A stretch of DNA of 64,000 nt, taken from contig FUZR01000002.1 of NCBI GenBank assembly GCA_900167895.1, positions 372,001 to 436,000 of the forward strand, written 5' to 3'. A program made the position numbers and the translations under genes. This stretch comes from Bacteroidales bacterium WCE2004 (GTDB lineage: Bacteria > Bacteroidota > Bacteroidia > Bacteroidales > UBA932). Below the pieces are notes generated by a model. The model made no database searches, had not been told where the DNA came from, and saw only the letters and a program-made list of their open reading frames with translations. Positions 29,951 to 39,635 of this stretch are shown piece after piece. The number at the start of each line of letters is the position of its first letter. The stretch's first letter is position 1.

Positions 29951-32227
29951 ATGGGAGAATTGACCACCAGCATCCAGTACCTCAGCGGAGTCGGTCCGAA
30001 AAGGGCCGAGCTGCTGCGGCGCGAGCTGGGGGTCGAGACGCTCTCCGACCTGATCCACCTCTATCCTTTCCGCTACATCGACCGCAGCGGCATCACGCCC
30101 ATCGCGCAGATCGCGCCGGACCTTGCGTCCGTGCAGCTGCAGGCCACGGTCGTGAGCCGCACGCTCTACGGGCCCAACAGCGCCGTGGTCTCGCAGGAGA
30201 CGGACCCCATCCACTGGGGCGCGGTCAAGCGCCTGTCGGTAATCGTGCAGGACGCCTCCGGGCAGATGGAGATGGTCTTTTTCAAGGGCATCCGCTGGAA
30301 TTTCCAGCGGCTCGTCCCGGGCGCCACGTTCCTCTTTTTCGGCAAGCCGCAGGCCTTCGGCACGCGCCTCAACATCGTGCACCCGGAGGTGGACGTGCCG
30401 CAGGAGGGCGCGCTCTCGCAGGGGGCGCTGACGGGCGTCTATCCGAGCACGGAGAAGCTCAAGACGGGCGGCATCACCGGCAAGGTGATGTGCCGCCTGC
30501 AGCAGGCCGCGCTCGCGCTCTGCCTGCCGGAGGTGGAGGAGACGCTGCCCGAATACGTGCTGCGCGACCGGGGGCTCGTCTCCCTGCAGTACGCGCTCAA
30601 GAACATCCATTTCCCGAAGGACAGCTATTCGCTGCAGAAGGCGACCTACCGCCTCAAGTTCGAGGAGCTCTTCTTCCTGCAGCTCTCGCTGCTGAAGCAG
30701 AAATATGTCCGTTCGCGCGGGGAGCGCGGCCTGCCGATGCCCAAGGTCGGGCCGGACTTCCACGCGTGCTACAACGCGCTCCCCTACGCCCTGACCGGGG
30801 CGCAGCAGCGGGTGATCAAGGAGATCCGCGCCGACCTGACGAGCGGGCACCAGATGAACCGCCTGCTGCAGGGCGACGTGGGTTCCGGCAAGACGATGGT
30901 GGCGGTGCTGAGCTGCCTGATGGCCATCGGCAACGGTTTCCAGACCTGCATCATGGCGCCCACCGAGGTGCTCGCGCAGCAGCACTACGCCAATATCCAG
31001 AAGTATCTCAAGCCCACCTCCGTGCAGTGTGCGCTGCTGACCGGCAGCACGCCGCAGAAGGAGCGGCGCGCCATCCACGCCGCCCTGGAGGACGGCAGCC
31101 TGGGCATCCTCGTCGGCACGCATGCGCTGCTGGAGGACAACGTCGTCTTCCGCAACCTCGGCCTCGCCGTCATCGACGAGCAACACCGCTTCGGCGTCGA
31201 CCAGCGTGCACGTCTCTGGGCCAAAGGACCTTCGCTGGTCGGCGGCGGAGACCTCCTGCAGAAAACCGTGGCCACCCATGGCCTCGTAAATGGGGGGGAC
31301 CCGCTGCGCAGCAGTGGGGGGGATGAGCGAAGCGAAGTTTTCAGCAGGAGCGTCTCCGCCGCCGACCGGATCCCGCCGCACATTCTCGTGATGACGGCGA
31401 CGCCGATCCCGCGGACGCTAGCGATGACGCTCTACGGCGACCTCGACGTGTCGGTCATCGACGAGATGCCGCCAGGCCGCAAGCCCGTGCAGACGATGTG
31501 CATCGGGCAGAACCGCCGGGCGGCGATGTACAAGTTCATGCGGGAGGAGATCTCCCGCGGGCGGCAGGTGTTCGTCGTCTACCCGCTCATCTTCGAGAGC
31601 GAGAAGATGGACCTGCAGAACCTCGAGCAGGGCTACGAAGAGATCGTCAAGGCCTTCCCGCTGCCGGACTACAAGGTCGCCATCGTCCACGGGCAGCAGA
31701 CCAACGACGAGAAGAATTTCAACATGTCGGCGTTCGTCGCCGGCCGCGCCAACATCCTCGTGTCCACCACCGTGATCGAGGTGGGCGTGGACGTCCCCAA
31801 CGCCTCCGTGATGGTCATCGAGAGCGCCCAGCGCTTCGGCCTGAGCCAGCTGCACCAGCTGCGCGGCCGGGTGGGGCGCGGCGCCGAGAAGTCCTACTGC
31901 ATCCTGGTCAAGGACGTCAAGACCTCCAGGGAGGCCCAGCAGCGCCTGGACCTGATGTGCGCCACCGAAGACGGCTTCGAGATTGCCGAGCAGGACATGA
32001 AGATGCGCGGCCCGGGCGACCTCGAGGGCACGCAGCAGAGCGGCCTGCCCATCAGTCTCAACATCGCCTCGCTGGCCAAGGACGGCCAGCTGCTGTCGGA
32101 GGCCCGCGCCTATGCCGCGAAGGTCCTGGATGCCGATCCGGAGCTCGCCGCCCCGCAGAACGCCCCGCTGGTCCGCGAGCTGCGCAAAGGCAAATACGAG
32201 ATCAAGGATTACAGCAAAATTTCTTGA
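29951..32227 (+). CDS. recG: ATP-dependent DNA helicase RecG carrying an in-frame palindromic insertion
   Basis: 758 residues from ATG 29951 (MGELTTSIQYLSGVGPKRAELL). N-terminal wedge/OB domain; then LLQGDVGSGKTMVA (Walker A), MAPTEVLAQQHY, VIDEQHRFGV (DExH), MTATPIPRTLAMT (motif III), VGVDVPNASVMVIE and QLRGRVGRG, all canonical. Between motifs II and III, after RARLWAKGPS, about 45 extra residues (roughly 429-473) interrupt a stretch that in other RecG proteins passes almost directly to PPHxLxMTATP. The extra DNA is the palindromic element at 31237-31367, which is shared with the uvrD/pcrA gene. The frame stays open, so the helicase may still be made with an added surface loop. It remodels stalled replication forks. 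Confidence 0.95.
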   Translation: MGELTTSIQYLSGVGPKRAELLRRELGVETLSDLIHLYPFRYIDRSGITPIAQIAPDLASVQLQATVVSRTLYGPNSAVVSQETDPIHWGAVKRLSVIVQDASGQMEMVFFKGIRWNFQRLVPGATFLFFGKPQAFGTRLNIVHPEVDVPQEGALSQGALTGVYPSTEKLKTGGITGKVMCRLQQAALALCLPEVEETLPEYVLRDRGLVSLQYALKNIHFPKDSYSLQKATYRLKFEELFFLQLSLLKQKYVRSRGERGLPMPKVGPDFHACYNALPYALTGAQQRVIKEIRADLTSGHQMNRLLQGDVGSGKTMVAVLSCLMAIGNGFQTCIMAPTEVLAQQHYANIQKYLKPTSVQCALLTGSTPQKERRAIHAALEDGSLGILVGTHALLEDNVVFRNLGLAVIDEQHRFGVDQRARLWAKGPSLVGGGDLLQKTVATHGLVNGGDPLRSSGGDERSEVFSRSVSAADRIPPHILVMTATPIPRTLAMTLYGDLDVSVIDEMPPGRKPVQTMCIGQNRRAAMYKFMREEISRGRQVFVVYPLIFESEKMDLQNLEQGYEEIVKAFPLPDYKVAIVHGQQTNDEKNFNMSAFVAGRANILVSTTVIEVGVDVPNASVMVIESAQRFGLSQLHQLRGRVGRGAEKSYCILVKDVKTSREAQQRLDLMCATEDGFEIAEQDMKMRGPGDLEGTQQSGLPISLNIASLAKDGQLLSEARAYAAKVLDADPELAAPQNAPLVRELRKGKYEIKDYSKIS
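31237..31367 (+). repeat. In-frame palindromic element, copy 1 (inside recG)
   Basis: 131 bp. The ends are near-perfect inverted repeats: GGTCGGCGGCGGAGAC (31237-31252) and GTCTCCGCCGCCGACC (31352-31367), continuing inward as CTCCTGC-n-GAAAAC and GTTTTC-n-GCAGGAG. The core (about 31268-31335) holds CCACCCATGGC, CGTAAATGGG, a small CTGCGCAG palindrome and GGGGATGAG. The same core order occurs at 37418-37486. The reading frame through it has no stop. Confidence 0.85.
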
Positions 32228-37157: not shown

Positions 37158-39635
37158 TTACTCCGCCGGGCGCAGCTTGGCGTATTTGAGCAGCAGGAGC
37201 TTCTCGCCGTGTGCGTCGAAACGGATCCGGGCCTTCATCTCGGGGGCCCGGCCGGATAATTCGAGAATCGTGCCAAGGCCGAAGCGGTTGTGCTCGATGC
37301 GCTGTCCGGCACGCAGTTCCGTCATCGGCACGCCCACGAAATTGGCGTCCGCCAACGCCGAAGCGGCTGTGTTGGTGCTGCTGGAGCGATCCGGTGAGCC
37401 GGTTGCCCCCGACGAGCGTAGCCACCCATGGCTTCGTAAATGGGAGGGGCCCGCAGCCGCAGGCTGTGGGAGGGATGAGGACGCAGTCCGAACTCGATCG
37501 GGGGCAAGCCGGCTCCCGGACGCTCCACGCTTCTGATACTGGACGCCGGAGGACTGGCCGTAAGTGCCGCCGCCGACACCGAAACGGTCGAGGCGGCCGC
37601 CGGTGAAGCGGCTGCCGAAGCCACCCCACTCGTGCGTGACGCCGCTGTTGTCGAAATCGGCGTCCTCGAGCGGATTCTCGATATACTGCGGATCGATCTC
37701 CTTGATGAAGCGCGACGGGGCGTTGGACTCGTGCTTGCCGTTGCGCATGCGCGTGCCGGCGAAGGACAGGCGCACCGCCTTCTTGGCGCGCGTCACGGCC
37801 ACGTAGAAGAGCCGCCGCTCCTCCTCGATCTCGTTCTTCGAAGAGAGCATCGACAGGCTCGGGAAGAGGTTCTCCTCCATGCCCGCCACGAATACGTACG
37901 GGAATTCGAGGCCCTTGGACGAGTGGACCGTCATCAGGGCCACTTTATTGTTGGTGTCTTCGTCATCGGTCACGTCCACGTTGCTCAGCAGCGAGACGTT
38001 CTCCAGGAAGTCATCCAGCGTGAACACGCCCACTTCGCCGCCCTCGGCAGCATAATCCTCCGCCTCCTCCTTGCGCTCCTCCACGAACTGGGCGACGCTG
38101 TTGATCAATTCGTCCAGGTTGGCCACGCGGGACATGCCCTCGATGGAGGTGTCCAGCTTGTAGAACGCATACAGGCCGCTGTCGTCGGCAATCTTCTTCG
38201 CGAGCTCCCAGGCGTCCGTCGTCGGGACGAGCGCAGAAAGCCTGGCGATCATCTCGCAGAACGGCTGCACCTTCGGGACCTCGCGGGCCGCCTGGAAGAG
38301 CGGCCAGCCCTGCTGCCGGGCCACGGCTTCCACGGCCTCCAGGGCCTTGTCGCCGATGCCGCGCGCCGGCTTGTTGACCACCCGCCGGAACGATTCGTCG
38401 TCGCGCGGGTTGACCACCAGCTTGAAGTAGGCCATCATGTCCTTGACCTCCGCGCGGTCAAAGAAGGAATTGCCCGAATAAATCATATAAGGAATATTGC
38501 GTCGGCGGAGCTGCTCCTCCAGCGCGCGCGACTGCGCGTTGGTCCGGTAGAGGATCGCGAAATCCTGGTACTGCGCCTGCGCGCTGCGCATCCGGTCCAT
38601 GATCTCGGAGACGATCATCACCGCCTCCTCCGTCTCGGTGTAGGCCTTCAGCAGGCGGATGCGCTCGCCGTCCTCCCCCATCGCATAGCATTCCTTCGGG
38701 ATGCGGCCCTCGTTGTGCGCGATCAGTGAGTTGGCGGCGTCCACGATCACCTGCGTGGAGCGGTAGTTGCGCTCCAGGCGGAAGATCTTGCACTCCGGAT
38801 AATCCTTCTTGAAATTGAGGATGTTCTCGATGCGCGCGCCGCGGAAAGCATAGATGGACTGGCTGTCGTCGCCCACCACGCAGATGTTGCGGCGGAACTG
38901 CGCCAACTTCTTGAGGATCAAATACTGGGAGACGTTGGTGTCCTGGTACTCGTCCACCATGATATGCGAGAAACGACCGGCGATCGACTCGAGCGCCTCC
39001 TTGTTGTCCCGCAGCAGGTAGTTCATATTCAGCAGGATGTCGTCGAAATCCATCACCCCGCTCTGCTTGAGCTTCTCCTGGTAGCGCGCGTACACCTCGC
39101 CCAGGCGCGGCCGCTTGGTGTGGCTGTCCTGCGTCTGCAGCTCGGGGTTGCCCTGGTAGGCCGAGACCGTGATGAGGTTGTTCTTGGCCATCGAGATGCG
39201 GGCCAGCACGTCGCGCGGCTTGTAGATCTTGTCGTCCAGGCCCATCTCCTTGACGCAGGCCTTGACGGCGCTCTGCGAGTCGGACGTATCATAGATGGTG
39301 AAGTTCTGCGGGTAGCCCAGGAACTCCGCGTATTCGCGCAGGAAACGCACGAACACGGCGTGGAAGGTGCCCATCACGACCCTGCGGACGTTCCTGTCCC
39401 CCACCATCTGCGCGATACGCTCCTTCATCTCGCCTGCCGCCTTCTTCGTAAACGTCAAGGCAAGTATGCGGGAATCAGGCTGTTGCGCCAGAATATATGC
39501 CACTCTGCTCGTCAGTACGCGAGTTTTGCCGGAGCCGGCGCCCGCCACAATCAGCACAGGTCCTTCAACACATTCGACGGCTCTTCTCTGCTCGTCGTTC
39601 AAATCCTCCAGAATCGTTGTCACTTTATCCATCAT
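37158..39635 (-). CDS. pcrA: UvrD/PcrA-family superfamily 1 DNA helicase with in-frame palindromic insertion
   Basis: 825 residues (Met1 or Met2 as start). Motifs in order: LNDEQRRAVECVEGPVLIVA (Q motif), AGAGSGKTRVL (Walker A), FTKKAAGEMKERI, VDEYQDTN (DExx), GDDSQSIYAFRGA, RNYRSTQ, TVHSSKGLEFPYVF, AVTRAKK. The C-terminal 125 residues are a variable linker and a small Tudor-like end (LRAGQRIEHNRFGLGTILEL). Residues about 703-752 in this linker are encoded by the palindromic element at 37382-37527. The frame is open through it. The enzyme unwinds DNA in repair and replication-conflict resolution. Confidence 0.95.
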   Translation of the reverse strand: MMDKVTTILEDLNDEQRRAVECVEGPVLIVAGAGSGKTRVLTSRVAYILAQQPDSRILALTFTKKAAGEMKERIAQMVGDRNVRRVVMGTFHAVFVRFLREYAEFLGYPQNFTIYDTSDSQSAVKACVKEMGLDDKIYKPRDVLARISMAKNNLITVSAYQGNPELQTQDSHTKRPRLGEVYARYQEKLKQSGVMDFDDILLNMNYLLRDNKEALESIAGRFSHIMVDEYQDTNVSQYLILKKLAQFRRNICVVGDDSQSIYAFRGARIENILNFKKDYPECKIFRLERNYRSTQVIVDAANSLIAHNEGRIPKECYAMGEDGERIRLLKAYTETEEAVMIVSEIMDRMRSAQAQYQDFAILYRTNAQSRALEEQLRRRNIPYMIYSGNSFFDRAEVKDMMAYFKLVVNPRDDESFRRVVNKPARGIGDKALEAVEAVARQQGWPLFQAAREVPKVQPFCEMIARLSALVPTTDAWELAKKIADDSGLYAFYKLDTSIEGMSRVANLDELINSVAQFVEERKEEAEDYAAEGGEVGVFTLDDFLENVSLLSNVDVTDDEDTNNKVALMTVHSSKGLEFPYVFVAGMEENLFPSLSMLSSKNEIEEERRLFYVAVTRAKKAVRLSFAGTRMRNGKHESNAPSRFIKEIDPQYIENPLEDADFDNSGVTHEWGGFGSRFTGGRLDRFGVGGGTYGQSSGVQYQKRGASGSRLAPDRVRTASSSLPQPAAAGPSHLRSHGWLRSSGATGSPDRSSSTNTAASALADANFVGVPMTELRAGQRIEHNRFGLGTILELSGRAPEMKARIRFDAHGEKLLLLKYAKLRPAE
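37382..37527 (+). repeat. In-frame palindromic element, copy 2 (inside uvrD/pcrA)
   Basis: 146 bp. Ends: TGGAGCG-A-TCCGG-T-GAGCCGG and, at the right, CCGGCTC-CCGGA-CGCTCCA, then TTGCCCCCGA inward on the left and TCGGGGGCAA on the right, so arms of about 32 bp pair with small bulges. The core (37418-37486) has CCACCCATGGC, CGTAAATGGG, a CAGCC-GCA-GGCTG hairpin and GGGATGAG, matching the recG copy. The outer arms differ from those of copy 1 but pair with each other. Orientation is antisense to the host gene. Confidence 0.83.

Follow-up and report, generated by a model that had tools for sequence, protein, structure and literature searches.

The recG gene of Bacteroidales bacterium WCE2004 contains an in-frame insertion, and our analysis supports its identification as a palindromic repeat that belongs to a dispersed family. 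Copies of this family possess a conserved core forming a covarying pseudoknot, the core is enclosed by arms that pair with each other but are little conserved between copies, and at shared sites the core occurs in both orientations. All coordinates refer to the window, i.e., the whole stretch of 64,000 nucleotides that was analyzed (Table 1).

Table 1. Positions of the recG element, its parts and the second copy in the window
Feature	Position	Strand	Remarks
recG host gene	29951..32227	+	DEAD up to residue 423, Helicase_C from residue 535 (Pfam)
Whole in-frame element within recG	31235..31369	+	135 nt / 45 codons, compared with the empty G008 site KGPSVPPH
Left arm	31235..31266	+	copy-specific, pairs with right arm
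Conserved core, 71 nt	31267..31337	+	R1 match 31254-31351 takes in inner arms
Pseudoknot stem 1	31267..31286	+	CGTGGCC (31267-31273) with GGCC (31280-31283) and CG (31285-31286); covariation, 105 distinct copies
Pseudoknot stem 2	31275..31294	+	CCCAT (31275-31279) with ATGGG (31290-31294)
Variable hairpin P4	31300..31318	+	G.T pair in 58/105 distinct copies
Small variable hairpin P5	31327..31333	+	helix 6, 96.3% of cells paired
Right arm	31338..31369	+	pairs with left arm
Second window copy, in uvrD/pcrA	about 37382..37527	+ (gene on -)	inverted repeat I9; R1 87.5 bits at 37404-37507

The insertion in recG

The RecG protein of WCE2004 carries the peptide LVGGGDLLQKTVATHGLVNGGDPLRSSGGDERSEVFSRSVSAADR at residues 429-473, flanked by KGPS and IPPH and located after the DEQH motif and before MTATP. 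The empty recG allele of G008, a near species, reads KGPSVPPHILVMTATP. The recG DNA of G008 is 84-85% identical to that of WCE2004, query positions 935-1071 are absent from it, and the WCE2004 allele is longer by exactly 135 nt; the limits of the insert were therefore set as listed in Table 1. The first-pass annotation had proposed limits at 31237-31367, which are 2 nt short on each side, whereas its residues 429-473 and its claim of 45 residues added in frame agree with this comparison. It had also described near-perfect inverted ends with one bulge, and such ends were found: 16 of 16 nucleotides of the outer arms are paired (31237-31252 with 31352-31367, 100% complementarity), 14 nt of the inner arms show 93% complementarity (31253-31266 with 31337-31350), and base 31351 is unpaired in between.

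Folding of the 131-mer of the recG element as RNA yielded -85.6 kcal/mol as compared to -54.3 (sd 4) for 200 dinucleotide shuffles, corresponding to a z of -7.8; the other strand gave a z of -7.7 and DNA parameters gave -7.8. The insert folds as one long stem which is more stable than 200 of 200 shuffles on both strands.

The RecG loop from DEQHRFG to MTATP was surveyed in 30 genomes fetched out of 37, namely that of WCE2004 and those of 29 congeners; one locus, L142, could not be read in one frame. This loop comprises 26-29 aa in 25 of the 30 loci read, in accordance with the earlier statement that this stretch is normally short; most relatives are without the insert, so the 45 residues are not a feature common to them. 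Long loops with related inserts were found in WCE2004 (72 aa) and G015 (71 aa), and loops with different inserts in G027 (63 aa) and G009 (47 aa). As judged from the motifs only, the insert is probably located in a surface or linker loop.

Distribution of the repeat family

A BLAST search of the WCE2004 genome with the recG element returned 17 rows at E ≤ 0.001, three of which correspond to the query or to its arms. A covariance model, R1, was built from 14 WCE2004 copies; it contains stem 1 of the core and is without stem 2. R1 gave 32 matches at E ≤ 1 in the WCE2004 genome, 28 of which were strong (E ≤ 1.3e-6). The core had been recognized a second time in uvrD/pcrA, and an R1 match was indeed obtained there (Table 1); the search showed further that the family is not limited to these two genes. 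Within a set of 61 genomes, 33 contained R1 matches, namely WCE2004 and 32 of 36 congeners, with 0 to 43 copies per congener, and none of the 24 genomes from other families matched. When 393 genomes drawn from the order were scored with stricter filters and few candidates per genome, five had matches: WCE2004, a second genus of the same family, and three genera that belong to other families. No match was obtained for two further congeners in this draw, G061 and G404.

The exact core pattern was found in at least 120 stretches of GTDB genomes. The titles of the 80 stretches listed were all Bacteroidales, Bacteroidaceae, Bacteroidia or (Candidatus) Cryptobacteroides, and there were no Rickettsiales among these 80. 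The same pattern found 0 stretches in IMG/VR, and carriage by phages was rejected on this basis. A search of eight loci against Rfam at E ≤ 5 gave nothing at a gathering score; the sub-threshold rows that overlapped elements were mir-330 in L007 (23.6 vs. 60 bits) and Collinsella-1 in L006 (18.3 vs. 35). A ribozyme or riboswitch of Rfam was thus rejected for want of a match above threshold. Among the top-ranked results of literature searches on coding palindromes, Rickettsia elements, Cryptobacteroides and palindromic repeats of Bacteroidetes, no account of this family was found.

Host genes in WCE2004

The copy in uvrD/pcrA occupies residues about 500-534 of the protein, with UvrD_C ending at 415 and a tudor domain starting at 567 (Pfam). 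A check of the reading frames, as suggested by the first-pass annotation, identified 17 in-frame copies (16 of the 28 strong matches and the weak match L044) in 16 WCE2004 genes with Pfam support; an open frame was the selection criterion for these coding copies, and disrupted genes would thus be missed. In 11 of the 16 genes, one domain spans the insert or domains are recognized on both sides. These genes encode RecG, an RsmF-type methyltransferase, KsgA, an rRNA SpoU methylase ("rlmB-like"), UvrD, a phage-integrase family recombinase, an FAD-dependent protein, two PmbA/TldD proteins, one of which holds two copies, RibF, and QueH, for which the two-sided support is based on two stretches, the second of them not displayed. 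In the remaining five (pseudouridine synthase, radical SAM protein, DnaX, DsbD and GcvP2) a domain is recognized on one side only, and the gene limits are therefore less certain. The coding assignment is uncertain for L022 and L045. The core has the same direction as the host gene in seven of the 17 coding copies and the opposite direction in 10. The copy within the phage-integrase family recombinase gene is L029 (C1:87454).

Structure of the core

An alignment of 107 copies, 105 of them distinct, was analyzed for a structure consisting of two pseudoknotted stems, two hairpins and the inner arm. In this structure, 93.2% of the cells were paired as compared to at most 55.9% when it was slid; 20 pairs showed double changes, and 398 double-change cells were counted vs. 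114.8 in shuffles. The core thus contains a covarying H-type pseudoknot followed by two variable hairpins. Stem 2 provides the cleaner test of covariation because the alignment was fitted to R1, which contains stem 1 but not stem 2. Among the 107 rows, the fourth pair of stem 2 is GC in 45, UA in 37, AU in 22 and UG in two, with one gap, and the fifth pair is UA in 61 and CG in 44, with two gaps. In most copies (55 of 92 cells), stem 1 lacks its third pair, and only 70.8% of the inner P4 pairs are paired.

G-U pairs are scarce in both pseudoknot stems. Together with the occurrence of cores in either direction relative to the genes, this argues against selection on the host transcript alone, and a purely RNA-level element was rejected. 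Of 118 copies, 35 have the tetranucleotide CGTC next to P5 on the other strand, and 20 have GTAG near the start of the core, where it falls within stem 1 rather than at its foot. At 31292-31322, P4 is flanked by two G-rich blocks, which read GGGRGGG in many copies.

Arms of the element

Arms were compared in 118 of 126 R1 matches; two window rows, four duplicates seen twice from neighboring loci (L041, L101, L054, L022) and two weak matches (L068, L104) were dropped. Anchored complementarity between the two arms of a copy reached a median length of 27 and a median score of 18.5, as compared to a mean score of 1.3 and a maximum of 14 for 2000 mispaired combinations. The arms extended over at least 18 aligned columns in 112 copies and were shorter in six. 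The presence of complementary arms in all but six of the 118 copies speaks against their DNA having been grossly misjoined.

Arms of different copies have little in common. In 25 same-genome pairs whose cores are at least 96% identical, arm identity averaged 0.57 (0.41-0.75), and arms of different genomes gave a background of 0.49 (sd 0.07); 19 of these pairs remained below the 95th percentile of the background and six reached it. In G244, three near-identical cores have only about 9 inner nucleotides of the arms in common (GGAATAACG in two copies, GGGATGACG in the third), whereas the outer ~15 nt are unique to each copy and yet paired. The arms are not random, since a weak consensus persists (G-rich near -18, CCTC near -10 and GAAAAC at the inner end). 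Furthermore, their variability is not universal because G214 has arms that are conserved between copies and near-fixed ends. Related arms were also found in the WCE2004 subfamily L031, L034, L036 and L037, with identities of up to 0.88 at cores of 94-96%, and the recG and rlmB-like copies of WCE2004 have a 12-nt arm block, GCGGAGACCTCC, in common.

Within the arms, 61 G.T pairs were counted vs. 22 A.C pairs. This excess points to selection on one folded strand rather than to copying at the DNA level alone. It is the core-sense strand whose folding appears to be important, a pattern consistent with a single-stranded intermediate. The rlmB-like site (L397, L398) has an insert common to G008 and G015 with arms identical at 32 of 36 and 34 of 36 positions; hence, arms do not always change fast. 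P4 accounts for all six differences between these two cores: four are at paired positions, with changes on both sides of the hairpin, and the other two are in the loop. This is predicted by hairpin copying as well as by selection for pairing.

Two sources of the arms were rejected for recG. Duplication of the target does not account for them, as the empty relatives are without either arm, and copying from elsewhere in the genome is not supported, as BLAST with the whole element gave no separate arm match outside the element. In G214, close opposite pairs of elements (L371/L386 and L375/L388) are located beside a small recurrent hairpin (TCTCCATAAGTGGAGA), an arrangement resembling paired REPs.

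Both orientations of the core at one site

Loop peptides of relatives were sorted with orientation patterns chosen by eye. Among the best 120 of 8000 RecG relatives, 16 loops contained forward cores, 12 inverted cores, 34 other long inserts, and 58 were short. The best 120 of 8000 KsgA relatives included 14 forward, 19 inverted, 38 other long and 45 short loops, and four were not parsed. For 120 RsmF-type relatives listed, looser patterns gave forward and inverted counts of 1 and 12 for the A-type and of 16 and 27 for the second type, with 14 not parsed. Outside the loop, 682 of 686 residues of RecG protein P0001 are identical to those of WCE2004; its loop bears the same outer arm peptides, SLVGGGD and VSAADR, with the core inverted between them. 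In ksgA, the core DNA of G000 matches that of G015 at 70 of 72 positions and runs in the opposite direction in the gene, whereas the arm regions match at 23 of 37 and 29 of 37 positions. Hence, the segment between the inverted repeats is found in both orientations at the same sites, as in invertons. Inverted cores at recG and ksgA of relatives keep an open frame, and 25 WCE2004 copies have on average 4.0 of six frames open vs. 2.97 in mononucleotide shuffles.

In some protein pairs (P0129/P0155 of the RsmF type; P0272/P0293 of KsgA), the two members differ only within the loop, which is a mosaic, and in a few adjacent native residues. Short-tract recombination or assembly chimeras may account for this. 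Claims at the strain level are based on metagenome assemblies, and no weight is placed on strain-level rates because the mosaic pairs fit both explanations alike.

Discussion

The explanation towards which we lean, with somewhat more confidence than doubt, is a non-autonomous mobile palindrome that works in a Rickettsia-like manner, its arms being kept complementary and its core being flipped by hairpin-templated strand switching. Such a palindrome, devoid of an open reading frame of its own, would insert at many places in putative Cryptobacteroides genomes and would be tolerated within genes where its length is a multiple of three and free of stop codons. An enzyme provided in trans would probably recognize its structured single strand, a pseudoknot core on a stem of ~30 bp. 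Once the element is in place, its long hairpin would induce strand switching during replication; through the copying of one arm onto the other, the arms would remain complementary in spite of sequence drift, and the core would be flipped between them. Template switching on the hairpin would thus explain paired arms and flips together. It was proposed to maintain the coding palindromes described for Nematomorpha mitochondria (PMC6649704), and its possible role in inverting the core is our own extension of that proposal. We infer mobility in trans, strand switching, the location in loops and the absence of a benefit to the host. Confidence in this explanation is tempered because six of the 25 core-matched pairs show arm similarity and five genes have one-sided domain support. 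Furthermore, no mobilizing enzyme was found for the element and no target-site duplication, such as a MITE would leave, could be defined. Both points count against it, as do the conserved arms of G214, the slow change of arms at the rlmB-like site and the excess of G.T pairs. Arms that are borne by the element and drift in concert are favored, without certainty, over arms made at insertion because the recG and rlmB-like arms have a block in common and shorter alleles may be deletion scars.

The near-identical cores with unrelated arms could also arise if the core together with the inner arm moved alone, one outer arm being provided by the target and the other being its inverted copy made by snap-back synthesis. 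The G244 copies, with their common inner nucleotides and unique paired outer arms, are in line with this. So are the ksgA loops P0248 and P0252, which differ by 33 aa comprising the core and one arm, the shorter one retaining the left arm peptide, and the empty rlmB-like allele of G036, which is 33 aa shorter than the filled G000 allele and resembles one of its arms (GGDAPSQ / CGDAPLQ). However, these shorter alleles may have originated by deletion, both recG arms are missing in empty relatives together with the core (135 nt), the block common to the recG and rlmB-like copies looks element-borne, and G214 arms are conserved between copies; movement of the core alone is therefore considered unlikely. 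The same holds for the proposal that a single-stranded pseudoknot moves, builds private arms by snap-back copying and has its core flipped routinely, with one locus encoding two alternative peptides in housekeeping enzymes, to which we likewise assign a low probability. Old insertions whose cores are homogenized by gene conversion between loci while the arms drift in concert would account for the location of the recG and ksgA inserts, which coincides between G000 and G015, and for ksgA cores that are much more alike than their arm regions. Empty sites exist, however, in near species (G008 and G036 for recG, G015 and G036 for the RsmF-type site), and the copy number varies widely between congeners; we regard this history as improbable, although it deserves some weight.

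REP elements mobilized by RAYT, or CGTC-type REPs, were considered since intragenic REPs are known and the ends of Rickettsia palindromic elements (RPEs) are said to bear CGTC (PMC3733652), a motif also seen beside P5. RAYT-type Y1_Tnp matches were obtained in 27 of 37 genomes, 26 of them above the cut-off. Nevertheless, none of 10 RAYT loci examined, a subset of the Y1_Tnp matches listed that does not include the two WCE2004 RAYT genes, carries the element, and RAYT was rejected as its partner. G013 (96% completeness) has 11 copies and no RAYT match, G010 (63% completeness) has three RAYT matches and no copy, the GTAG of 20 copies does not lie at the foot of the stem, and size and pseudoknot set the element apart from REPs. 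A REP origin thus appears quite unlikely. The open frames in both orientations at the same sites, and their excess over shuffles, would suit an inverton driven by a recombinase for phase variation of proteins; yet the arms vary from site to site, no common recombinase site was seen among most loci and the hosts are housekeeping genes, which makes phase variation very unlikely.

Intragenic invertons of gut Bacteroidales, in which coding DNA is flipped by way of inverted repeats, were reportedly described by Chanin et al. in Nature in 2024. The flipped piece described here differs from them in being itself a dispersed repeat with arms that vary from site to site. Wolbachia palindromic repeats are said to be protein-coding palindromes as well and are grouped with RPEs. 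RPEs are described as palindromes of 105-146 bp located in frame in conserved protein genes and also between genes, and the product of one host gene is reported to be translated and active (PMC2229807; PMC10969869). They are said to lose repeat identity with time (PMC6649704). The WCE2004 element, with 135 nt and a long stem, falls within this size range, and it is likewise inserted in frame in many unrelated conserved genes, the open frame of these copies having been a selection criterion. The parallel to RPEs drawn in the first-pass annotation is therefore apt as a way of working; as far as RPEs are described, the family differs by its occurrence in another phylum, its covarying pseudoknot core, its mostly copy-specific arms and the two orientations of the core at one site.

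Intragenic REPs are reported as small palindromes inside genes for replication, repair and RNA modification, and CGTC repeats are reported in Bacteroidetes too (PMC3733652). They have stems of 5-13 bp (GTAG) or 8-9 bp (CGTC) and a tag, whereas the element described here is ~130 nt long and combines a pseudoknot with a stem of ~30 bp. A CGTC, which CGTC-type REPs and some RPEs are reported to bear, is seen beside P5 in part of its copies, on the other strand. The perfect inverted repeats reported in coding sequence of Nematomorpha mitochondria (PMC6649704) apparently include no dispersed repeat with a conserved core, unlike the present family. Palindromic candidate structured RNAs that overlap cas genes and are listed with no assigned function, with a mean candidate length of 62 bases and with CRISPRCas_133 occurring mostly in Bacteroidetes (PMC9067536), resemble it by description as palindromes overlapping coding genes.

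Palindromes that code for protein were already known in Rickettsia and Wolbachia, and the present family behaves in the same way in a Bacteroidales genus of gut and rumen. The family offers much natural variation to work with. How palindromes originate and persist becomes a pointed question when each copy has private arms that nevertheless pair around a conserved core. The extent to which enzymes such as RecG or KsgA tolerate foreign peptide is put to the test by a core whose frame is open in both orientations within them. It also serves as a warning that protein loops from these genomes are not all native.

The RecG, RsmF-type and KsgA loops of metagenome proteins hold other recurrent insert peptides as well, namely GSGAWAPRAQRSAAIPLEGAQGVK, TPCTPSRGMAADRFARGAHAQ, RSEATQGVSGGTPPVPHRGCRG and SGPAGPGTFAQ.KSERGLRPQG. 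These are partly nested and perhaps represent further palindrome families.
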